From: an uncultured Campylobacterales bacterium
GTDB taxonomy: Bacteria > Campylobacterota > Campylobacteria > Campylobacterales > Sulfurimonadaceae
Length of the DNA stretch: 33,284 nucleotides
NCBI GenBank assembly: GCA_903885085.1
Contig: CAISHH010000130.1
Coordinates: 1-33,284, forward strand
Direction: 5' to 3'
The position numbers and the translations under genes were made by a program. Below are positions 1-28,053 of this stretch, in pieces; the stretch's first letter is position 1; each line of letters starts with the position of its first letter. Below the pieces are notes generated by a model. That model was not told the origin of the DNA, made no database searches, and saw only the letters and a program-made list of their open reading frames with translations.

Positions 1-3000
1 ATTAATATCAAGTTTTGTCTTAACCTCTTTTGTCGTCTCTTGCGTTGCTTGTACTGGAGCAAATATGATTCGAGTTGGATCTATTTTTTGTTTGACTACT
101 AGATACTCAGAGATCACTTTTGCTCTTGAAGCAGCAAGCGTTTTTAACTCATCTTCACTCACGGGCATAAAACTACTGTCCTCAACTGCGAGTTTTGCCG
201 TATACTCTTCATTGAACTCTTTAATATCTTTATACTGCTCTTTAAATTTATTTTTTATATTGTTTAAATTATCACGTGTTGAGTTTTTAAGAAAGATCCC
301 CTCAAGCATCTCTGCATTTAAAGCATTTCTTCGCTCTTCCTCATTTGTCGCACCACTTTTTTTCACGATCAAGTCGATCAATTTTTGTGTTTGAATCGCT
401 TTTTTATCTGTATTTGTATCATAAGTAACTCCAACACTCAGAGATATACTGAGACGTTTTTGCAAAGCTTTTGTAATGTTATCCAGTTTTTCAATCTCAG
501 GAGGGAGTAAAACTGTCTTACCCGGCTCAAAATCTATCGATTGTAAGTTATCCCCGTTAAATCCTAGCATTGACCCTAAAAGTCTAAAAGGGGCGGTAAC
601 GGCTTTTGTGACTAAATTACCAAGAACTTTCCAAACCATCGCTCCATATCTAAAATCAGGATTATTAAGATCGCCTTTGATAGGCAGATCGATATCTATA
701 ACGCCATCACTATCTTCTAAAAGAGCAACTGCGAGGCGAAGCGGCCAAACAGTAATACTTGGATCTTTAACGGTTTCACCAAGCTTAATATGCTTAATAA
801 CAACGCTATTTGCAGCATCAAGTTTGCCATCATTTATTTTATATCCGAGCTTAACAAAAAGTTTGCCATCATCTATTTTATACCCTGCAAATGTTGCCGA
901 GTAGGCTGTAAGGTTATTAAGAGCTAAATTACTAAAATTCACATTCATATCTGTATATTTTTTAGGATTTGCCGCATTGATGGAACCTTGGATTTTTGCA
1001 GAACCATATTGGTCTACAACACCGTCAAGATCGATATTACTTGTCTCATTTGGTTGAGAAGAAACCCCATAAATTTTTCCATTAAGATCATGGATGTGTG
1101 TTTTAAATACATAAAAAAGAGATTGATCCATAAAATCTGCGCTCCCATTTTTCACTGTAATATCCATAATCTTTATCGGAAACGGTTCTGATTTTTTGGC
1201 TGTTTGTTTTGAGGCCATAGATGTGTTGTGATCGACTTTTGCGGGTTTCATGAGTTTCGCAAAGTTGATCGTTTTATTTTGATCAATCATTGTGTTTGCG
1301 TAGAGTGAATCTATAAGGACTTTATCAATATAAAGCCTGTTTGGTGCATAATCAAAAGTATATCCAAGATCAAGTTTATTAAATGATGTTATTAGTGTAT
1401 GATCTCTGCTATCTTTCAATATTATTTTTTCAAGTCCAAAGTTCCCCTTCGCGTTCATTTTCGGCGATTTTGAAACGCTGTTAAAACTCTCTTTACCATT
1501 GACACTTAAAGCACCATCTTCTATGCTTAGATAGGTGTAAGGGTTGATATATGGATTTAAAAACTTTAATCCAAACGTGTTTATAGCAAACTCTCCTTCT
1601 TGTCTGAGTGGCTCACGCTGAAGTTTTCCAGCCAAGCTAATCGAGCCTGTTTGATTGATATGTGTACGGATATCATACTTAAACCAGCTTTTTGCATCCA
1701 AGTCAAAATCGCTTACATGTAAGAGGAAATTGTTAAGCTTTATCGTTTGATTTGGCTTGATGTTTGTATCTGTCAAAGCAAGAGCCGAGCTGTTTACATC
1801 AAAGTTTTTGAGTAGAAATTTTGGCTTACTTGTTTTGGATGTTGCCTCAGCTGCGCTAAAACTCTCCGAGCCACTCAAACTTAAAGCTCCATCAGCTTTG
1901 ATGGGAGCAGTATATTTTGCAATATATGGGTTTAAAAATTTGGATGTAAGGTTTGTGATGGAAAATTCACCCTCTTGTTTGAGCGGCTTTAACTGTACTT
2001 TACCACTTGCTCCAAGAGCTGTCTCATGGTTAAGATCAGTGTGAAAATCGTAACTTAACCAACCATCTTTTCCAAGGACGAGATCGCTTACATGTAAAGA
2101 TACATTTTCAAGAGCGATAAGCTGTGATGGCGTAAGCATCGTGTCGTTAAGAATTATTTTCGAACTCTCTAAAGCGAGTTTATCGAGAGTGACCTTCCAC
2201 GGTTTTGTTTCATTTTTATCTTCTGCTTCAGGCTTATCTGAAGTTTTATTGACTTTTATATACTCTTGCCAATCGATTTTATTGCCTGCGAGTCTTTGCG
2301 CTTTAAGATCCACTCCGTTAATCGTAACAGCTTCTACATGCACCTCTTGTTGTAAGGGTAAAGCGCTAATTTTATTCACTTGTAATGTTGCGATACTTAA
2401 AATATCTGATGGTTTATTTTTAGCTTTTATTCTCAACCCTGAAAGACTCACTGAACTATTATCGATTTTTAGATTTTTGAGCTCATCGAGATCGACATGA
2501 TATTGGACGTAAGTGCTAAGTTTGCCATCTGCGATTTCGATATTGAGCATATCTTTTATATATTTCCATCCAGAGTAGAGCGTAACTGATTTTAAATCTA
2601 GAGTTCCATCAACAACAAAGGGAGAGATAGATTTTATACTGTTTACAAGCTCAAAGCTACCTCCATTATTAAAATCAAATTGCAACACAGAAGAGCCTAC
2701 TTTTGTACTCTTCTTTCCAGTATCAATATTTTTGATCTTAAATTCTAGATCATTGAGAGCCATTTTATATGGAGAGGTTTTTGTATAATCTTCATAAGCG
2801 ATTGTTCCATCTGTCACTGCCAAATCATCAAGAATGAAACGAAAATCTTTTTTTGAAGCAGTTTTGTTTTGATCTTTTGAAGGTTTTGCAATGTTGAGAA
2901 GATTAAGCTTTTTATCTTTTGCATATACAACATCCAAAAAAGGCTCTTGAAGTTCTACACTTTTTACATGTATCGTTTTATCTAAAAGAGCCAATACTTG

Positions 3001-3904: not shown

Positions 3905-5724
3905 AAATTTACCTCGTTTATTTTAGTTTGTATAAGCGCAACAAATTCTGCTTCGCTTAGATTGTATTGTTCACGCGTTCTTCTGTCTCTTATGGCAATC
4001 GTTTTGTTTGCGACCTCTTCGTCACCTAACACGATTATCATAGGAACACGCGCCTTCTCAGCTGTACGGATACGTTTGTTCAAACTATCATTTTTACTGT
4101 AGATCTCACTGTCCGCACCGATATCAAGCAGTTTATCTGCCAACTCTTTAGCATATGCGTTATGAGTTTCTGCAATTGGAACGATCGCAACCTGCGTAGG
4201 TGCGACGAACATTGGAAACTCCCCAGCATAGTGTTCCGTCAATATACCAACAAAACGCTCAAAAGAACCTAAAATTGCTCTATGAATCATAACAGGTTGA
4301 ATTTTATCGTTATCATCTCCTGTATATTCAAGCTCAAATCTCTGTGGCAAGTTAAAGTCTAACTGGATAGTTCCACACTGCCACTCACGCCCGATAGCAT
4401 CGGTTATCTTGATATCAATTTTTGGTCCGTAAAATGCTCCGCCGCCCTCATCTATCTCATAAGCAAGACTGTGTTTGTCCATCGCATTTTTTAGCGCCTG
4501 TGTAGATATTTCCCACACAGCATCATCGCCCACGGCTTTTTCGGGTTTTGTAGAGATCATCATTTTATAATCAAAATTAAAAGTTGTCATAATTTTATCG
4601 ACAAAATCCACAACTTCTATAATTTGCTCTTCAACTTGTGCCGCTGTACAGAAAATATGCGCATCATCTTGAGTAAATTCACGAACACGAAAAAGCCCGT
4701 GAAGTGCACCTGTCATCTCATGACGGTGAACAACACCATATTCAAAATATTTTAGAGGAAGATCGCGGTATGAACGAAGATCCTCTTCATATACTTTAAT
4801 ATGTCCGACACAGTTCATCGGTTTGATACCAAACTCGATTTTTTTGTCTTCTGACTCTTCTATCTGAGTGAAGTACATATTTTCGCCGTAGTTTTGGTAA
4901 TGTCCTGAAACTTTCCAAAGATCACTTTTAAGCATCTCAGGTCCGCGAACCGGCTCATAACCACGTTTTCTGTGTGCCTTAAAGAGCAGTTGCTCCAAAC
5001 GGCTTCTAAGACGCGCGCCAGCAGGAAGCCAGAGTGCAAAACCAGAACCTACCTCTTCACGAAAAGAGAAAAGTTTCATCTCCGCACCGATCTTTCTATG
5101 GTCACGTTTTTCAGCTTCTGCCATCATATCAAGATAGTTTTTGAGTGCTTCTTTATCTGCAAATGCAATTCCGTAAATACGAGTAAGCACCTCATTTTTA
5201 GAGTCTCCACCAAGATATGCGCCAGCGATTTTCATCAGTTTAAAGTATCTGATAAATCCAACATTTGGCAAGTGAGGTCCACGGCAAAGATCTTCAAAAT
5301 CACCTTGTTTATAGATAGAAACCGTCTCACTTGGAATGCGTTTCATAACTTCAAGCTTCAAATGGTCGTTTGCAAATTTAACTTTTGCTTCATCCATAGA
5401 GATATCATATTTTTCTATCTCTGTTTTTTTCTTTGCAAGATTAAGCATCTCTTTTTCTATCGTTTTAAGATCAGATTCTCCGATAGTCGCAGAGGTTTTA
5501 AAATCATAATAAAATCCCTCTTTTACAACCGGCCCGACATAAAACTCAGCGTCAGGATAGAGTGATTTGATAGCTTGTGCCATTAAGTGCGCCGTCGAGT
5601 GACGTAAAACTTCTAATGACTCTTTTGAGTTATCTAGTTCTATCGCCTCACCCTCTATACCAAGCACTTTTGCAGTCTGCAGGTCAACAATTTCATCATT
5701 GTATTTCAATGCGATTCTATTCAC
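3901..5724 (-). CDS. thrS: Threonyl-tRNA synthetase
   Basis: TGS, HxxxH editing region ([18 protein letters not shown]), class II motifs. ORF track starts at 5751, but GTG at 5724 ([11 protein letters not shown]) is the likely start because the upstream codons overlap a hairpin. Confidence 0.96.
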
Positions 5725-5856: not shown

Positions 5857-6930
5857 TTATTTATAGTAATTTTTAACGCCACTCATCGTTCTACCCATAT
5901 TAAGCAAAACCATATCAGCGACCACGATTGCGGCCATCGCTTCACACACGATAGTTCCGCGGATTGCGACACATGGATCATGACGTCCTTTAAGTGAAAA
6001 ATCAACCTCTTCATTGTTACATGTAAGCGTATGTTGCTCTTGAAAGATTGATGGTGTCGGTTTGAAATAGACGTTTAAAATAATATCTTCGCCATTTGTG
6101 ATACCGCCTAAAATTCCGCCTGCATGATTGCTAAGAAATCCATTTGCACGAATCTGGTCATTATTCTCTGAACCTTTTTTTGTTGCGCTCACAATGCCAT
6201 CGCCGATCTCTACGGCTTTGACGGCATTGATGCCCATCATCGCGTCTGCTAAGAGAGCATCCATTTTGTAGTACATCGGTTCGCCAAGGCCTAACGGCGC
6301 ATTTTTGATTACAACACGAGATACACCACCGACGGAATCATGAGCATCTTTTGCCTTGAGTACAGCTTCTTTTTGAGCCTCTTCAACAGAAGCATCAAGA
6401 GCATAAATGATACTTTCTTTTGCATATTCATAATCAAAATTAGTCGCTTGTATGCCATCAATCGCACAGATTCCGCTTACTATTTCAACACCCAACTCTT
6501 GTAACATCAGTTTTGCAACAGCTCCAGCGGCAACGCGAGCGGCTGTTTCTCTTGCCGATGAACGCCCGCCGCCTCGATAATCACGAATACCGTATTTATG
6601 AAAGTAAGTAAAATCCGCATGTCCAGGACGAAACACATCTTTGATGTTTGAGTAGTCTTTTGATTTTTGATCTGTATTGTAGATCACCATCGCGATGGGT
6701 GTTCCAGTTGAAAGACCTTCAAAAATACCGCTGAGGATTTCAACTTTATCATCTTCTTTACGTGCTGTTTCAAACTTGCTTTTTCCCGGCTTCCGGCGAT
6801 CGAGTTCACTTTGGATAAATGCTTCATCTATAAGAAGTCCAGCAGGAACACCATCTACGACACAACCAAGCGCTTTTCCGTGAGATTCTCCAAAAGTTGT
6901 GAAACTAAATCTTTGTCCAAAGCGGTTCAT
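5857..6930 (-). CDS. aroC: Chorismate synthase
   Basis: 357 aa; [48 protein letters not shown] motifs. Confidence 0.97.
6017..6026. repeat. TTACATGTAA palindrome
   Basis: Exact 10-mer in aroC, read as LTCN (a different codon phase). Confidence 0.95.
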
Positions 6931-9125: not shown

Positions 9126-9155
9126 TTGACTTTATACGTCAAAAAACACTATAAT
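9126..9155 (+). promoter_or_regulatory. Sigma70-type promoter with overlapping inverted repeat
   Basis: TTGACT (9126-9131) - 18 nt - TATAAT (9150-9155); TTGAC-N7-GTCAA inverted repeat at 9126-9142. Confidence 0.65.
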
Positions 9156-9195
9156 GACGATGAAACTAAAAGTCAAGAGGAGTTTTAACGCTATT

Positions 9196-9840
9196 ATGAT
9201 TCACACTTATATTCGTTCAGACAAAAATTTTGAAACTGCATATGAACAACTAAAGTTCATAAGTTTATATGCTAATAAAAAAGGGATAGTTGTAGACGAA
9301 GAATTCATAGACCAAAAATCTCAGAACAAACGCTTAGATGAAAGAGATGAAGTTGCTTCATACTTTAAACATGGAGCAGGCGGGACTCTTTTAGTTTATG
9401 ATACTTGGGTTTTGAGTACAAATATGGAAGATGCTGTTCAGATGTTTAGCTGTCTTCTTAAGAACTCTTATGAAGTCCACTTTGTAAAACAATCTGTTAT
9501 AATTACCCGCGAGAGTGATGTAATGCTTGTTTTAGGCCTTATCGACGAGCTACGACAAACTCTTCAGGATAACTCAAAGAAGTCTATAGGTAGACCTAAA
9601 GGGAGCCGATCATCATCAAAATTCGATCAATATCATAATGAGATTTTATCTCTTATAAAGTCAAATAAAACCGTAAGCGAAATCGCTCGGGTCTTACATG
9701 TAAGCCGCAGTTCTTTGAAGGATTACATAGAATCACGTGAGCTAAAAAATTTCGCTTCAGGTTACACAGTTCACGAAACACCAGTAAATGCCGAGGAAAT
9801 GGTGATAAACAAAATCACTTGCCCTCAAACAACCAAATAA
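9196..9840 (+). CDS. Resolvase/invertase-like N-terminal domain fused to HTH; probably a non-catalytic DNA-binding regulator
   Basis: IHTYIRSDKNFETAYEQL... resolvase-like fold and GRPKGSRSS + HTH (VSEIARVLHVSRSSLKDYI). The ORF-track start (9154) lies in the -10 box; ATG at 9196 fits the resolvase N-terminus. Confidence 0.75.
   Translation: MIHTYIRSDKNFETAYEQLKFISLYANKKGIVVDEEFIDQKSQNKRLDERDEVASYFKHGAGGTLLVYDTWVLSTNMEDAVQMFSCLLKNSYEVHFVKQSVIITRESDVMLVLGLIDELRQTLQDNSKKSIGRPKGSRSSSKFDQYHNEILSLIKSNKTVSEIARVLHVSRSSLKDYIESRELKNFASGYTVHETPVNAEEMVINKITCPQTTK
9693..9704. repeat. CTTACATGTAAG palindrome
   Basis: Exact 12-mer in the HTH of the recombinase-like gene (LHVS). Confidence 0.95.
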
Positions 9841-11357: not shown

Positions 11358-13067
11358 TTACGCTTCTAACTTTCCCGCCAACTTTTTATAGCTCTGCGAA
11401 TTTTCCAATAATTCTTGATGTGTTCCACTTGCAACTATCTGACCAGCTTGAAATACAAGTATCTTGTCTGCATCTATTATAGTGCTGAGTCTATGTGCGA
11501 TGGTAATGGTGATCTTATCTTTTGCATAGTTTTTAAGCGCGTTTTGTATCCGTTTTTCACTCTCATTATCAAGTGCGGAAGTTGCTTCATCAAACAGTAA
11601 AAGTGAAGCATGTTTGTAGATGGCACGAGCGATGGCGATTCTCTGACGCTGACCGCCTGAGAGGTTTGCACCAAACTCTTCCATCATCGTGTCTATACCG
11701 TTTTCAAGCTTTGAAGTGAACTCCCATGCATCAGCAAGGCGAAGCGCTTCTTCTACTCTTTCTCGCTCTATCTCTTGCCCATACGCAACATTTGCTGCGA
11801 GTGAATCTTGAAAGATATACACACGTTGAGAGACTAGTGAGATGTGATGGCGAAGCGACTTCTGCGTATACTCTTTGATATCTCTGCCATTGATGCGAAT
11901 CTCTCCACTTGATGTCTCATAAAAACGAAGTATAAGATTTATAAGTGTACTTTTCCCGCCTCCACTATCGCCGACAAGTGCGATGTTTTGCCCATCTTTT
12001 GCACTAAAGTTTATATCTTTAAGCGCCTCTTTATTTCCATAAGAAAGGCTTACATGTAAGCCCTCTATGGAAGTGATATCTTCCTCTAAAACTAATTCGC
12101 CATCTTTGATCGCATTATCAATATCGAGCACTTCAAACACGCGCTCACTCGCAGCCACTGCATCTTGGATCTTTGAGTAAATAGAACCAATACGGCGAAT
12201 CGGCTGAAATACAAGCCCCACAGCCGTTAAAAATGCCGTAAACTCTCCTACTGTCATATGGTTGTTATACACTTCATGTCCACCTACGAAGATGACCGCC
12301 GCAAGTCCTCCGGCACCTATGACTTCCATGATAGGAGAGACAAGTTCACCCACATACACTGACTTCATATTTATCTTAAAAAAGTTCCAATTTTCCAAAG
12401 AAAAGCGCTTCATCTCATACGCTTCTGTTGCGTTTGCTTTTATGATCTCGCTGTTATTAAAAACCTCTGTCAGTCTTGTCATAACATCGGCATTTTTCGC
12501 TTGTGAACGGTGGGAATACTTTTTCAGCTTTCTAGTAACTGCCATTAAAGGATAGATAATCAGAGGAACCAATATAAGCGAGTAAAAGGCAAGTTTTGGA
12601 TTCAAATAGATCACATATCCGATGAGAGCAATAACGGTAATACCCTCACGAAAGAGTTCAGGAAGCATATTTGAGACAAAATACTGAATACGACCAATAT
12701 CATTTGTCACGCGAGAGATAAGCTCTCCACTGCGATTGAGATATAAAAAACTCATATCCATTGAGATGATCTTTTCTAAAAGAATCTCTCTAAAACGGCT
12801 CACAATATGCATCCCAATATAGTCCATATACACTGATTGTACATACCGTCCTAAAGCTTTTATGACATATATACTAAGCATTCCAAGTGGAATAAAATAG
12901 AGCATACTCTCATCGCGTTTAATAAACATATCATCCATCAAAGGCTTCATAATCTGTGCTGTTGCCGTTGTTGCGACAACTGTCAAAATGATGCCTATGA
13001 GTACATAAATATATTGGAGTTTGTACTCTTTGATATAGGGTAAATAACGCTTATAGATTTTTTTCAA
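11358..13067 (-). CDS. MsbA-like ABC exporter (permease + ATPase)
   Basis: 569 aa; ABC TM domain plus GDSGGGKSTL Walker A, LSGGQRQRIAIARA signature, LLLFDEATSALD Walker B. Confidence 0.92.
   Translation of the reverse strand: MKKIYKRYLPYIKEYKLQYIYVLIGIILTVVATTATAQIMKPLMDDMFIKRDESMLYFIPLGMLSIYVIKALGRYVQSVYMDYIGMHIVSRFREILLEKIISMDMSFLYLNRSGELISRVTNDIGRIQYFVSNMLPELFREGITVIALIGYVIYLNPKLAFYSLILVPLIIYPLMAVTRKLKKYSHRSQAKNADVMTRLTEVFNNSEIIKANATEAYEMKRFSLENWNFFKINMKSVYVGELVSPIMEVIGAGGLAAVIFVGGHEVYNNHMTVGEFTAFLTAVGLVFQPIRRIGSIYSKIQDAVAASERVFEVLDIDNAIKDGELVLEEDITSIEGLHVSLSYGNKEALKDINFSAKDGQNIALVGDSGGGKSTLINLILRFYETSSGEIRINGRDIKEYTQKSLRHHISLVSQRVYIFQDSLAANVAYGQEIERERVEEALRLADAWEFTSKLENGIDTMMEEFGANLSGGQRQRIAIARAIYKHASLLLFDEATSALDNESEKRIQNALKNYAKDKITITIAHRLSTIIDADKILVFQAGQIVASGTHQELLENSQSYKKLAGKLEA
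12047..12062. repeat. GGCTTACATGTAAGCC palindrome
   Basis: 16-bp perfect palindrome containing TTACATGTAA, in the ABC exporter gene. Confidence 0.95.
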
Positions 13068-15065: not shown

Positions 15066-15091
15066 ACGCAATTCTATCCTAAAGATGATTT

Positions 15092-15105
15092 GCTTACATG
15101 TAAGC
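15092..15105. repeat. GCTTACATGTAAGC palindrome, intergenic
   Basis: 14-bp perfect palindrome between divergent sulfatase and TA genes. Confidence 0.95.
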
Positions 15106-15165
15106 GATTTAAAAATTTTATCTGAATTTAGATACAATTTTACGAATATAGTGCAAAGGATTACG

Positions 15166-15465
15166 ATGCAAACGATTAGATTGGAAGTTGAAGATTCAAA
15201 ACTTGAAACAGTTTTAAATATAATTCAAAATCTCAAAGAGAGTCTCATTACAAAGTATGAAATTTCAAATGATGGACAAGAGTTTAGCGAGGATATAGTA
15301 AACAATTCAGAAGATAGTATCTATGACAAATTTTTACAAATCAGTAAAAATGAAGCTGCTGCTCGAGTCACTCAGGCAGTCGAAGAAGTAAAAAGTAACA
15401 AAGCCACTCTTTTCAATCAAGAAGAGTATGACAATGATATGAATAAGTTTATGAAGAGTCTTTAG
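15166..15465 (+). CDS. Antitoxin of type II toxin-antitoxin pair
   Basis: Small acidic protein (MQTIRLEVEDSKLETVLNIIQNLKESLI...) immediately upstream of a RelE/ParE-like ORF; start reassigned from 15085 to 15166. Confidence 0.75.
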   Translation: MQTIRLEVEDSKLETVLNIIQNLKESLITKYEISNDGQEFSEDIVNNSEDSIYDKFLQISKNEAAARVTQAVEEVKSNKATLFNQEEYDNDMNKFMKSL

Positions 15466-15744
15466 GTGACGATACAAAGAAGACAAGAGTATTTAAGTGC
15501 ATTAAAAGCTATAATTTTCTTTATTTCAAAAGATAGTAAAAATAAAGCTCTCAATTTTAAAAATCAATTAGACAATAAAATAGGGGAATTGATCCATTTT
15601 CCTTATAAATTTCAGCAATCAAAAAATCATAATGATGCAGATGTAAGAGATATGACTTTTAAAGGCTACACCATTACATATCTGGTCGAACATCAAAAAG
15701 ATAGAATTGTAATTCTTGATATTTATAAATGGATCGACAAATAA
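15466..15744 (+). CDS. RelE/ParE family toxin
   Basis: 92 aa; GTG start directly abutting the antitoxin stop; ...FPYKFQQSKNHNDADVRDMTFKGYTITYLVEHQKDRIVILDIYKW typical RelE/ParE C-terminus. Confidence 0.8.
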   Translation: MTIQRRQEYLSALKAIIFFISKDSKNKALNFKNQLDNKIGELIHFPYKFQQSKNHNDADVRDMTFKGYTITYLVEHQKDRIVILDIYKWIDK

Positions 15745-23066: not shown

Positions 23067-23814
23067 AATTACAGATATTTCCTGCGTTATCATCGCCAAA
23101 AATGCGCAAGAGACACTCGGTACTACACTAGATTCTTTAAAAGATTTCGATGATGTTGTCGTTTATAGCAATAACTCAAACGACAATACCGATATTATCG
23201 CCAAAAGCTACCCAAACGTACAACTCATTCAAGGTGAATTTTTAGGCTTTGGACCGACAAAAAATGCAGCTTCAAAGTATGCAAAACATGAATGGATATT
23301 CTCGCTAGATGCGGATGAAGTTTTATCTCTAGAGTTTGTACAACAACTCTTACATGTAAGCCTAAATAGTGCCAATGTATATGCCATCAAAAGAATAAAT
23401 TTCTATAAATCTACGCAGATCAAACACTGTTGGGGAGATGATATTATCGTGCGTCTTTACAACAAAAATACAACCTCTTTTACAAACAGTAAAGTTCATG
23501 AAAAGATTGTTGATGAGGGCTTACATGTAAAAACCCTTGATGGAGATGTTCAACACTTTCCCTATGCTTCCATCAGCGATTTTATCGTAAAACTTGATCG
23601 ATACTCTACAATCTTTGCTCAAGACAACGTAGGTAAAAAAAGCTCTTCACCCACAAAAGCGTTTTTCAATGGACTCTTCTCATTTTTCAAAACCTACTTC
23701 ATCAAAAAAGGTTTTTTAGACGGCTACGCAGGTCTTGTGATAGCTTTTTCACACATGGCAACAAATTTTTATAAATATATAAAACTCTATGAACTCAATA
23801 AGGAGCAAAACTAA
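23059..23814 (+). CDS. Glycosyltransferase family 2 (WaaE/KdtX-like)
   Basis: ISCVIIAKNAQETLGTTLDSLKDFDDVVVYSNNSNDNT...KHEWIFSLDADEVLS. Confidence 0.9.
   Translation: MTRITDISCVIIAKNAQETLGTTLDSLKDFDDVVVYSNNSNDNTDIIAKSYPNVQLIQGEFLGFGPTKNAASKYAKHEWIFSLDADEVLSLEFVQQLLHVSLNSANVYAIKRINFYKSTQIKHCWGDDIIVRLYNKNTTSFTNSKVHEKIVDEGLHVKTLDGDVQHFPYASISDFIVKLDRYSTIFAQDNVGKKSSSPTKAFFNGLFSFFKTYFIKKGFLDGYAGLVIAFSHMATNFYKYIKLYELNKEQN
23349..23360. repeat. CTTACATGTAAG palindrome
   Basis: Exact 12-mer in a GT2 gene (LHVS). Confidence 0.95.
23521..23530. repeat. TTACATGTAA palindrome
   Basis: Exact 10-mer in the same GT2 gene (LHVK). Confidence 0.95.
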
Positions 23815-25213
23815 ATGCTCTTCAACTCCTACTCATTCATCTTCGCATTTTTACCACTAACCTTTTTTATCTACTTTTATCTCAACTCAAAAAGATTGAC
23901 GGTCGCGGCTAAAGGGTTTTTAGTCTTTGCTTCACTCTTTTTTTATAGTTATTGGAATATTGTTTATCTTCCTCTTATCTTAGGGAGTATTTTATTTAAC
24001 TTCATGGTGGGAAGTGGGTTAAGTAAAGAGAGCAAATTTTCTAAGAAGTCTGTTTTAATATTTGGTATTGTTGCCAATGTTGCTTTGCTTGGATATTTTA
24101 AATATAGTGACTTTTTTATAACAAATTTCAATCTCGCGATGGGCTTATACCCAAAGGGCACTTCGCATGTAGAGCTTTTACATCTCTTGCTTCCTCTAGG
24201 TATCTCATTTTTTACTTTCACACAAATAGCATTTTTAGTAGATGCCTACAAAGGAAAAGTAAAAGAGTATGACTTTTTAAACTATGCACTGTTTGTGACT
24301 TTCTTTCCTCACCTTCTTGCCGGACCTATCATCCATCATGCCGATATGATGCCGCAGTTTGCTTCACGCTGGAATATGGCTATTCGTTATAGAAATGTAG
24401 CAGCCGGTCTGTTTTTATTTTCCATAGGGCTTTTTAAAAAGGTAGTGATTGCTGATACCTTTGCCACTTGGGCAAATAATGGATTTGATGTCGCAACCTC
24501 ACTTAATCTCATCGAAGCATGGGCAACAAGTCTAAGCTATACCTTTCAGCTCTACTTTGACTTCTCGGGCTATACCGAATATGGCAATCGGTGTGAGTTT
24601 GATGTTAAACATCAAGCTTCCTGCAAACTTTAACTCGCCCTATAAAGCAAAAGATATTCAAGACTTTTGGAGAAGATGGCATATTACTCTTTCTAAGTTT
24701 TTAAGAGATTATATTTATATACCTCTTGGAGGTAATCGAGTCTCTAGTTATCGTAACTCTTTTAATCTTTTTAGTGTTTTTCTCATCGGTGGGCTTTGGC
24801 ATGGAGCGAGTTGGATGTTTGTTCTTTGGGGAGCCTTGCATGGTGTGGCAATGGTGATACACCGCATCTGGAAAGATATGGGCTTTAAGATGAACAGTTT
24901 ATTAGCATGGTTTATTACTTTTAACTTCATTAACATCACTTGGGTCTTCTTTAGAGCTAAGCATTGGGATGATGCTTTGAAGGTTTTGGGTGGGATGAGT
25001 TCATTTGGAAGTTTTTCATTTTCTTTATTCAACAACGATATTTATTGGCAACTCATAGTTATGCTTATTTTAGTTGTGACGCTTAAAAACTCAATGCAAA
25101 AACTGGAAGGCTTTAAACTTAACACGCTACATTTAGTCTTCAGCATAAGTATACTTTTAATAGCACTATCAGTTCAAAATAGTGTATCTGAATTTTTGTA
25201 TTTTAATTTTTAG
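23815..25213 (+). pseudogene. MBOAT family O-acyltransferase (AlgI-like), frame-disrupted
   Basis: N-terminal ORF 23815-24633 and C-terminal ORF 24557-25213. One extra A at 24578/24579 breaks FDFSGYT(D)MAIGVSLMLNIKLPANFNSPYKAKDIQDFWRRWHITLS; 1399-1=1398 nt in frame. Confidence 0.9.
24145..24172 (+). repeat. 28-bp extended element, copy A (in MBOAT gene)
   Basis: TTATA-CCCAAAGGGCACTTCGCA-TGTAG; encodes YPKGTSHV. Confidence 0.85.
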
Positions 25214-26267: not shown

Positions 26268-27247
26268 AGCAGCTGAATTGTTTTAGCTACTTCCTCAAAC
26301 ATCTCACTTCTTTTCCTCTCATCATGAGGGATCATATAGTGTTTTTGCATTGATTCGTCGCTAATACTTTTCCAGCGTTTTCCACTCGCAAAAAGTGAGT
26401 CTCCAAAGAAGGTCATCGTTGGAGTTCCGACAAGTGCGGCTAAATGATACGTGCCTGTAGAGGTTGAGATGAAGAGTTTGAAGTTGCTTATAAGTTTTGC
26501 AAAATTGACAAGCCCATCTTTTGAGATATAAAACACGACATCCGCGTTTTGAAGTGCATTTTTGCAATATTCATAAAGAGTTTGCTCATCAGGTCCAAAG
26601 GTCATCACGACTTGATAACTGTTTACATGCGAAGTACCCTTTGGGTGTAAGGCATTTTTTACCAACTCGATATACTCATCAATACTCCAGTTAGCATCAC
26701 TTGAACCGCCAAATCCCGGGTGAAAAGCGATCACCTCTTTTTTGATGCTATTCTCTTTGCAAAAACTCTCATACATCTCTTGCGCATCATCAAACTTTAA
26801 AAGCGGCTTTTCAAAATGCAAATCCATCTTAGGAAATAACACTTTTGCAAGCTCTAAATTGTACTCAAACTCCGTCATCTTCACTTCACTGCGTCTTTGC
26901 TTGACTCTCTTGGTGTAAAAGATTTGGGCTATCTTTGTAGCCGGTGCTATGCGCTTTGAAATGCCCGCTAAAAACTGCGCAATTGCTACACGGGTGTTTG
27001 AAAAGAGGGTAAGTGAAACATCTGCTTTGGCTTTGCGAAGCTTTTGTGCAAGCTCCCACACCGAGCTCTTGCCATCATCGACAATCACCTCATCGATAAA
27101 ATCACACGCACGAGCCAAACTCTCATTTAATGGTGCCACGCAGACTATGATGTGGTTACGCGGATCATACTGTTTTAAAACCTTACATGTAGGCAATGCT
27201 GTGATAAAATCTCCGAGTTTATCGGTACGAACAACAAGAATGTTCAA
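26264..27247 (-). CDS. Glycosyltransferase family 9 (ADP-heptose:LPS heptosyltransferase-like)
   Basis: MNILVVRTDKLGDFITALPTCKVLK...IAFHPGFGGSSDANW...FISTSTGTYHLAALVGTPTMTFFG. Confidence 0.92.
   Translation of the reverse strand: MNILVVRTDKLGDFITALPTCKVLKQYDPRNHIIVCVAPLNESLARACDFIDEVIVDDGKSSVWELAQKLRKAKADVSLTLFSNTRVAIAQFLAGISKRIAPATKIAQIFYTKRVKQRRSEVKMTEFEYNLELAKVLFPKMDLHFEKPLLKFDDAQEMYESFCKENSIKKEVIAFHPGFGGSSDANWSIDEYIELVKNALHPKGTSHVNSYQVVMTFGPDEQTLYEYCKNALQNADVVFYISKDGLVNFAKLISNFKLFISTSTGTYHLAALVGTPTMTFFGDSLFASGKRWKSISDESMQKHYMIPHDERKRSEMFEEVAKTIQLL
26623..26650 (-). repeat. 28-bp extended element, copy B (in GT9 gene)
   Basis: Minus strand TTACA-CCCAAAGGGTACTTCGCA-TGTAA; encodes HPKGTSHV. 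Confidence 0.88.
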
Positions 27248-28053
27248 TCTTTTCTCACATGCATAAATGAGGCAAATCTTGGTTTGCCCTTCTTTGTAAA
27301 GCCAAAATATTTAAAAGTGATGATGGAACCAAGTGCTGGAGGATTTTTTCTATTCTCTTGACTAAAACCAGATCCTATGAAAAGGTGTGTACCGTTTTCA
27401 AGTTCCACTTCCAGACTTCCCATCAAGCCACTATTCTTGCCAACGCCTTTTTTATAGCCGATAACTTTTCCTTCCATATCTTGAGCCAGTTTGACCTTTA
27501 AAACAGAATCGCTTCTGCCATCAAAATAACCTCTTGAGCCCTCTTTTATGACCGCTCCTTCTCCCCGTTTTTTCACCACTTCATGCAAAAATACCTTCAA
27601 CTCTTTTGAATTGTGACAGATTTTTTGTTCTACGATTCTTACATGTAAGAGGTGATGTGCATCAATGTAATCTTGCGCTTTTTGAAGTCGTTGCGTGAAA
27701 TTTCCCTCAGCGTTTGGCACTTCAAAGATATTGTAAGTGATCTCTTTCCATTTTTCGCTTGGCTTGTCATCCATCACAATCGACTGGATATTTTCAAAAT
27801 CCGCGCGCGCAGTCCAAAGCTCGCCATCAAGTGCAAACGGAGGTAGATCTTTTATAAACCATGCAGGAGCGTTTATAGGTTTATTTTGACGAGAGAGAAG
27901 TTGTTTTCCATCCCAATATCCACGGATGCCATCAAGTTTCTCAGACATCATCCAGCCGGAGATATTTTGATCAGTGTAGATATTTGGTTTTTGCAGAGTT
28001 AATGCGCTTACATGTAAGGCAAATAGAAATAAAACTGCAAAAACCTTGAACAT
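27244..28053 (-). CDS. Exported ATP-dependent DNA ligase (LigE-type, minimal)
   Basis: Signal peptide MFKVFAVLFLFALHVSA; SEKLDGIRGYWDGKQLLSR (KxDG), FALDGELW, GEGAVIKE, DSVLKVK ligase motifs. Confidence 0.9.
   Translation of the reverse strand: MFKVFAVLFLFALHVSALTLQKPNIYTDQNISGWMMSEKLDGIRGYWDGKQLLSRQNKPINAPAWFIKDLPPFALDGELWTARADFENIQSIVMDDKPSEKWKEITYNIFEVPNAEGNFTQRLQKAQDYIDAHHLLHVRIVEQKICHNSKELKVFLHEVVKKRGEGAVIKEGSRGYFDGRSDSVLKVKLAQDMEGKVIGYKKGVGKNSGLMGSLEVELENGTHLFIGSGFSQENRKNPPALGSIITFKYFGFTKKGKPRFASFMHVRKD
27638..27649. repeat. CTTACATGTAAG palindrome
   Basis: Exact 12-mer in the DNA ligase gene (LHVR). Confidence 0.95.
28007..28018. repeat. CTTACATGTAAG palindrome
   Basis: Exact 12-mer in the DNA ligase signal peptide (LHVS). 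Confidence 0.95.

Follow-up and report, generated by a model that had tools for sequence, protein, structure and literature searches.

The window, by which we mean the whole analysed stretch of 33,284 nucleotides, belongs to a Campylobacterales assembly (G000) of 2,337,789 bases in 172 contigs. It contains two 28-nt sequences, called here the long elements (copies A and B), and ten sites of the short palindrome TTACATGTAA, for which 0.05 sites are expected. The 18-nt insert of the long elements has two matches in the window, in copies A and B, against 0 expected. The features are as follows.

26623..26650, minus strand: long element, copy B, TTACA-CCCAAAGGGTACTTCGCA-TGTAA, encoding L-H-P-K-G-T-S-H-V in its host gene
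26628..26645, minus strand: 18-nt insert of copy B in the register TTACA^TGTAA
26630-26647, minus strand: the same insert in the equivalent register TTA^CATGTAA
26264..27247, minus strand: host gene of copy B, glycosyltransferase family 9 (LPS heptosyltransferase-like; PF01075, E 1.1e-15), ORF intact
24145..24172, plus strand: long element, copy A, TTATA-CCCAAAGGGCACTTCGCA-TGTAG, encoding L-Y-P-K-G-T-S-H-V
23815..24633, plus strand: 5' part of the host gene of copy A, an MBOAT acyltransferase; the frame is lost near 24600 and goes on in the ORF 24557-25213
1713..1722, unstranded: short palindrome TTACATGTAA
2088..2097, unstranded: short palindrome
6017..6026, unstranded: short palindrome inside the aroC-like ORF 5857-6930
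9694..9703, unstranded: short palindrome; exact in the G016 orthologue, substituted at the same length in the G030 orthologue
12050..12059, unstranded: short palindrome
15094..15103, unstranded: short palindrome
23350..23359, unstranded: short palindrome
23521..23530, unstranded: short palindrome
27639..27648, unstranded: short palindrome inside a DNA ligase-like ORF
28008..28017, unstranded: short palindrome inside a DNA ligase-like ORF

When the middle 18 nt were deleted from copy B on the minus strand, exactly TTACATGTAA was left, and copy A has the same architecture. This agrees with the preliminary description, in which the long element was taken to be the short palindrome plus 18 nt. The insert was also said to lie at the exact centre of the palindrome. 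This holds to within 2 nt, but the register is ambiguous since CA both precedes the insert and ends it. The copy B locus is 18 nt longer than its insert-free orthologues. For copy A, the best-matching copy in the sister genome G052 is also long, and a second copy of the gene in G052 reads CTACATGTAG and is 18 nt shorter. The MBOAT gene (23815-25213) shows two overlapping frames near 24,600 (FDFSGYTE..., then MAIGVSLMLNIKLP in the other frame); the split reflects either a sequencing error or a broken gene. Another part of the window, 15085-15744, holds a pair of small genes, the second with a ParE toxin domain; the first carries a short palindrome among its first few codons.

Beyond the window, genome-wide counts were taken from pattern searches, and the anatomy of the elements was taken from about 1.55 Mb of bulk-sampled stretches of four genomes of the window's genus (g1). 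TTACATGTAA occurs at 493 sites in G000, compared with 2 for the reversed control word, and 101 sites were observed in 370 kb of this genome against 0.57 expected. The core is TACATGTA with a flank preference C...G, and about half of the sites extend to CTTACATGTAAG. Of the 84 sites with one deviating base in G000, 48 deviate at the outermost base; counted inwards from the end, the numbers are 48, 3, 15, 12 and 6. Among 150 family relatives surveyed, all sampled genomes of the window's genus were rich in the palindrome (48 to 757 per genome). Genera g3, g5 and g6 carried 213 to 1062 per genome, a minority of g2 genomes had it in abundance, and the remaining genera were near zero. In G005, with 52% GC, 53 sites were found in 160 kb; the abundance is thus independent of GC content. 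These counts show that TTACATGTAA is a highly iterated palindrome, with hundreds of sites in some Campylobacterales genomes; no description of it was found in the searched literature. One further family in the phylum sample, f10 of the same order, includes two genomes of genus g39 (G201 and G253) with more than 1200 sites each, and a sister genus has 7. The palindrome in f10 may be of independent origin or may have been transferred.

When short sites were compared with their orthologues, the orthologue mostly had a sequence of the same length with 2-6 substitutions, and not a gap. Since empty alleles equal short ones in length, the short sites arise mostly by substitution, a mode of origin that the preliminary description had not foreseen. 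Such same-length gain and loss at hundreds of sites means that the palindrome is under some bias specific to its sequence, whether selection, biased repair or biased uptake. Between G000 and G052, 17 of 33 short sites were conserved, compared with 11 of 83 random 10-mers (P 5e-5). The sites are mostly genic and use two frames, read as LHV or LTC(K/N), and the frame that gives a stop is almost never used. They are also enriched in non-coding DNA relative to its share. Regular spacing was ruled out: the spacing is nearly random apart from an excess of close pairs. Intergenic palindromes are found as closely spaced pairs; each pair forms a hairpin, after which the DNA is T-rich. Examples are L137 (G052:C92) 5671-5700, L080 (G000:C144) 2700-2750 and L066 (G058), and the arrangement varies by species. 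These pairs resemble paired uptake sequences that serve as terminators. The sister single-contig genomes G030 and G016 have 48 and 367 palindromes, respectively; several sites in G030 look decayed, for example TTATATGTAA, a natural case of loss.

The preliminary description had called for a genome-wide search for further long copies. In G000 we found 36 copies at no more than 3 mismatches, compared with 0 for the control, so that the two window copies are not alone. Short copies outnumber them about 14 times. The long copies are near-identical and align as CTTAYACCCANAGGGYACTTYGCATGTAAG, with an 18-nt insert of approximately YACCCANAGGGYACTTYG. Because the flanks of different copies are unrelated, the shared unit is only about 30 bp (28-30 nt). 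A gap scan with CTTAYA-N(0..119)-TRTAAG over 370 kb of G000 and 381 kb of a sister genome gave 18 as the sole clear peak besides 0, and no peak was seen in g1 at insert lengths other than 18 ± 1. In G116, G005 and G002, no insert family was found apart from a single long copy (in G005) and chance spacings. Long copies are present in five of the eight genomes of the window's genus (36, 36, 11, 10 and 3); elsewhere there is one copy, in G005. None was found in the palindrome-rich g3 and g5 genomes or in the enriched g2 genomes, and g6 has one. An exact 24-mer scan of 85,488 species gave matches in two MAGs only, a scan from which the window genome's own records were perhaps excluded, and no long element was found in viral contigs.

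The genes in which long elements occur are unrelated and keep an open frame, with the element in either orientation and in several reading frames; ORFs of 150 codons or more hold 24 of the 35 G000 copies. Among the host genes are those for RNase HII (rnhB), RarA, TruA, heptosyltransferase I, a PanE-like protein, a metal P-type ATPase, DapF, a MurF-like protein and PseG. Relative to orthologues, the additional 18 nt are in frame in dapF, murF, rnhB, truA, rarA, pseG and others. Inserts of 17, 19 or 20 nt were found only outside long ORFs, which is what the loss of frame-breaking events from genes would produce. The idea that an 18-nt insert is frame-neutral was therefore borne out. As judged from the gene sequences, the insert would add six amino acids to ordinary, even essential, enzymes and leave their frames open.

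With respect to the register, T is found at position 5 in 12 of 33 long copies, compared with 7 of about 108 exact and one-off short sites of the gap-scan set. The register TTA^CATGTAA would accordingly fit slightly better than the dyad TTACA^TGTAA, or else an arm may have travelled with the insert. Any target-site duplication, by the criterion used for MITEs, would be at most the 2-bp CA repeat, which is indistinguishable from the register ambiguity.

A fold with TTACA/TGTAA as outer stem and CCC-AAA-GGG as inner hairpin had been suggested for the long form. The complementary (CTTACATGCGAAGTGCCCTTTGGGTGTAAG) strand is predicted to fold better: its 12 bp, interrupted by one mismatch and closed by a 4-nt loop, make a single imperfect hairpin with an RNA folding energy of -12.5 kcal/mol (z -3.9). 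The suggested fold is thus not the favoured one. The paired columns showed no covariation among 68 distinct copies; for example, position 26 changes from G to A in 22 of 68. An Rfam search returned one sub-threshold, irrelevant match. A structural role for the predicted hairpin is possible.

To follow the states of individual sites, 15 long-form loci of G000 were compared with up to seven congeners. The insert-free orthologues were nearly always exactly 18 nt shorter. The short palindrome, with no more than one mismatch, was present at the site in 31 of 64 insert-free orthologues (21 exact, 10 one-off), compared with 0.85% of random 36-nt stretches (P ~1e-46, although the cells are not independent). 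Thus, the proposal that short palindromes are the targets of the insert stood. At least one exact short allele was found at 13 of the 15 loci; the two without an exact short orthologue in the tabulated comparison were the copy A MBOAT gene and an outer-membrane efflux gene. Loci that alternate among empty, short and long states across sister species, as had been looked for, were seen, including that of copy B. There, G000 and G052 are long (with the six residues PKGTSH), G038 has exact TTACATGTAA, G063 has CTACATGTAA, and G016, G030, G046 and G058 are empty, with non-palindromic sequence equal in length to the short form. In dapF, G016, G058, G038 and G063 have the exact palindrome, G046 and G030 a one-off, and G000 and G052 the long form. 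A reciprocal locus is long in G052 and short in G000 and G016. At rarA, the long form is found in G000 and G046, G016 lacks it and G052 is altered, a pattern that needs parallel gain or loss. The altered G052 locus (L140:8855) carries the variant CTTACATGTAAAGGGCACTTTGCATGTGCC, a long element whose left side is now an exact short palindrome. Some of the orthologue comparisons may involve paralogues or transfer.

The order of the two forms was read on a species tree from three proteins, with internal supports of 52-100. The tree is ((G000,G058),G052), (G046,(G016,G030)), and G038 and G063 are the outgroups. In G038, the loci of the DMT-family transporter, pseG and copy B are short, and long alleles of these loci are found in the ingroup only. 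Since the outgroups tend to be short and the long form is restricted to the ingroup, most clearly in dapF, short-first is the better reading, and we consider it probable from these allele patterns that the short form preceded the long one. The pattern itself, insertion into a pre-existing palindrome, is nearly certain on the same comparisons. In G058, dapF is short although the tree (support 75) places this genome beside G000; exact reversal from long to short could have occurred at single loci.

The opposite order would make short palindromes excision scars, one of the two roles raised in the preliminary description, with an ancestral long form that loses precisely 18 nt. The exact length difference would fit such a loss, and rarA and the dapF gene of G058 can be read as losses. 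However, short copies are about 14 times more numerous than long ones, no long copy occurs in the palindrome-rich g3 and g5 or the enriched g2 genomes (one in g6), G038 and G063, as outgroups, have the short form at loci that are long in the ingroup, and the equal length of empty and short alleles shows that the short sites arise by substitution. This explanation is disfavoured, and we regard it as very improbable. That the elements are an assembly artefact, or conserved as protein and not as DNA, might be suspected from the fragmented assembly of the window genome and from PKGTSHV in both window copies. It is already refuted, since the same elements recur in independent assemblies, including the single-contig 2.24-Mb genome G016, and since unrelated genes carry them with their frames open, in several reading frames and either orientation; we give it practically no weight.

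Several known systems share features with the elements. HIP1 (GCGATCGC) of cyanobacteria has one-off variants concentrated at outer positions, and a methyltransferase link has been proposed for it (PMC4390886). Like HIP1, the palindrome occurs in hundreds of copies, is largely genic and lineage-specific, is gained and lost by substitution, exceeds expectation and has its one-offs at outer positions. It differs from HIP1 in being AT-rich, 10-12 nt long, less dense and in a different phylum, and in having a derived 18-nt insertion form; we know of no insertion form of HIP1. Rickettsia palindromic elements (RPE) are 105-146 bp long and, like the elements here, form a palindromic repeat family that lies in frame within conserved protein genes and also in intergenic DNA (PMC2229807). 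In-frame insertion in conserved genes relative to orthologues was likewise found here. In contrast to RPE, the element is only 28-30 nt, below the RPE length range, with a net insertion of 18 nt, and its target is the iterated palindrome itself. Double-hairpin elements of fungal mitochondria are small, hairpin-forming, thought to be mobile and also found within genes; they are organellar, larger than the present element and have no iterated palindromic target. REP sequences are mainly extragenic. REP/BIME, mobilised by RAYT, are also short imperfect palindromes in many copies; the RAYT-type Y1 transposase is absent here (G000, G052 and G046). The uptake sequences DUS of Neisseria and USS of Haemophilus are short overrepresented motifs, genic and in intergenic inverted pairs, but they have no insertion form and, to our knowledge, are not palindromic.

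We consider that the elements form a two-layer system. The iterated palindrome is the first layer. As the second, alleles of sister species demonstrate, at the level of sequence, the repeated placement of one particular 18-nt sequence into palindromes already present, in a single genus; the product is an imperfect hairpin of 28-30 nt. The whole explanation, in which the 18-mer is placed into the palindrome by templated copying, is the one towards which we lean slightly. A resident long element would act as the template, from which the 18-nt insert would be copied into a short palindrome elsewhere. Long and short forms have about 4-6 nt in common to the left (CTTA, CTTACA) and 7-9 nt to the right (CATGTAAG), and these shared arms would be used in the copying. 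A strand stalled at a palindrome might switch to a long copy and then back, or short ectopic conversion might produce the same result; a dedicated mobility enzyme would not be needed, though one may take part. Whatever the mechanism, it has to bring one specific 18-mer to many palindromes that already exist. Retention would be filtered by the reading frame: within genes the insert would be kept because 18 nt make six codons without a stop in the frames used. The copying step between palindromes is plausible, with a chance a little short of even. Donor and recipient cannot be matched up, as the long copies are all near-identical. Moreover, under unbiased conversion the commoner short copies should erase the long ones, so that the spread of the long form needs some bias.

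A dedicated mobile micro-element, the main rival, would instead require a putative enzyme that cuts near the centre of the palindrome (TTA^CATG or TTACA^TG) and inserts the 18-mer; in a variant, a 16-nt element plus a 2-nt duplication would behave as a very small non-autonomous transposon or in the manner of RPE. In its favour are the recurrence of a single fixed insert, always in the same target, at some three dozen unrelated loci, near-consensus copies that are missing in close relatives, and CA..CA ends that permit a 2-bp target duplication. However, RAYT mobilisation was rejected, as G000, G052 and G046, which have the most long copies, lack Y1_Tnp domains, and the long form was not found in any viral contig. 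As far as we know, 18 nt without terminal repeats is also far below the size of any known transposable element. A serine-recombinase-like gene of the window (9154-9840) was rejected as a mobility factor, since its distribution does not follow the motif: it is present in motif-poor genomes and missing from the motif-rich G038 and G063. The product has 228 aa, with a helix-turn-helix and, at its N terminus, a resolvase domain; the gene itself, upstream of one that is CcoG-like, is conserved through much of the family, motif-rich or not. We judge the micro-element rather unlikely. Two further readings seem to us unlikely to much the same degree. If a site of the HIP1 type were made through DNA methylation and biased mismatch repair, with the long form as a by-product, then gain by substitution, the outer-position one-offs (48 of 84 in G000) and the independence from GC content in G005 would be accounted for. 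The 18-mer would be left unexplained, and methyltransferases of the three families compared, D12, N6_N4 and C5, do not track palindrome abundance: all three domains are missing in G053 and G116, which have 340 and 397 sites, and one or two are missing in several g1 genomes. If the palindrome were a signal for DNA uptake or for another recognising protein, spread by molecular drive, the long form would be an alternative recognised version. A density of one site per 2-6 kb, sites gained inside genes by substitution and the excess of close pairs in intergenic hairpins agree with such a signal; the non-palindromic nature of known DUS and USS does not, and a copying step would still be needed for the 18-mer.

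The two-layer system joins two puzzles that have mostly been studied apart, namely highly iterated palindromes and palindromic DNA in frame within conserved genes. Since empty, short and long alleles of the same sites exist in sister species, gain, loss and polarity are directly measurable. If the 18-mer is copied through 4-9 nt of shared sequence, dispersed repeats would have a smaller minimum size than known so far, and copying would offer essential enzymes a route to gain small loops. We tentatively suggest that the 18-nt unit may be the smallest self-spreading DNA unit yet described, one that copies itself into palindrome landing sites genome-wide. If so, essential proteins would be lengthened by six residues as the 18-mer spreads.
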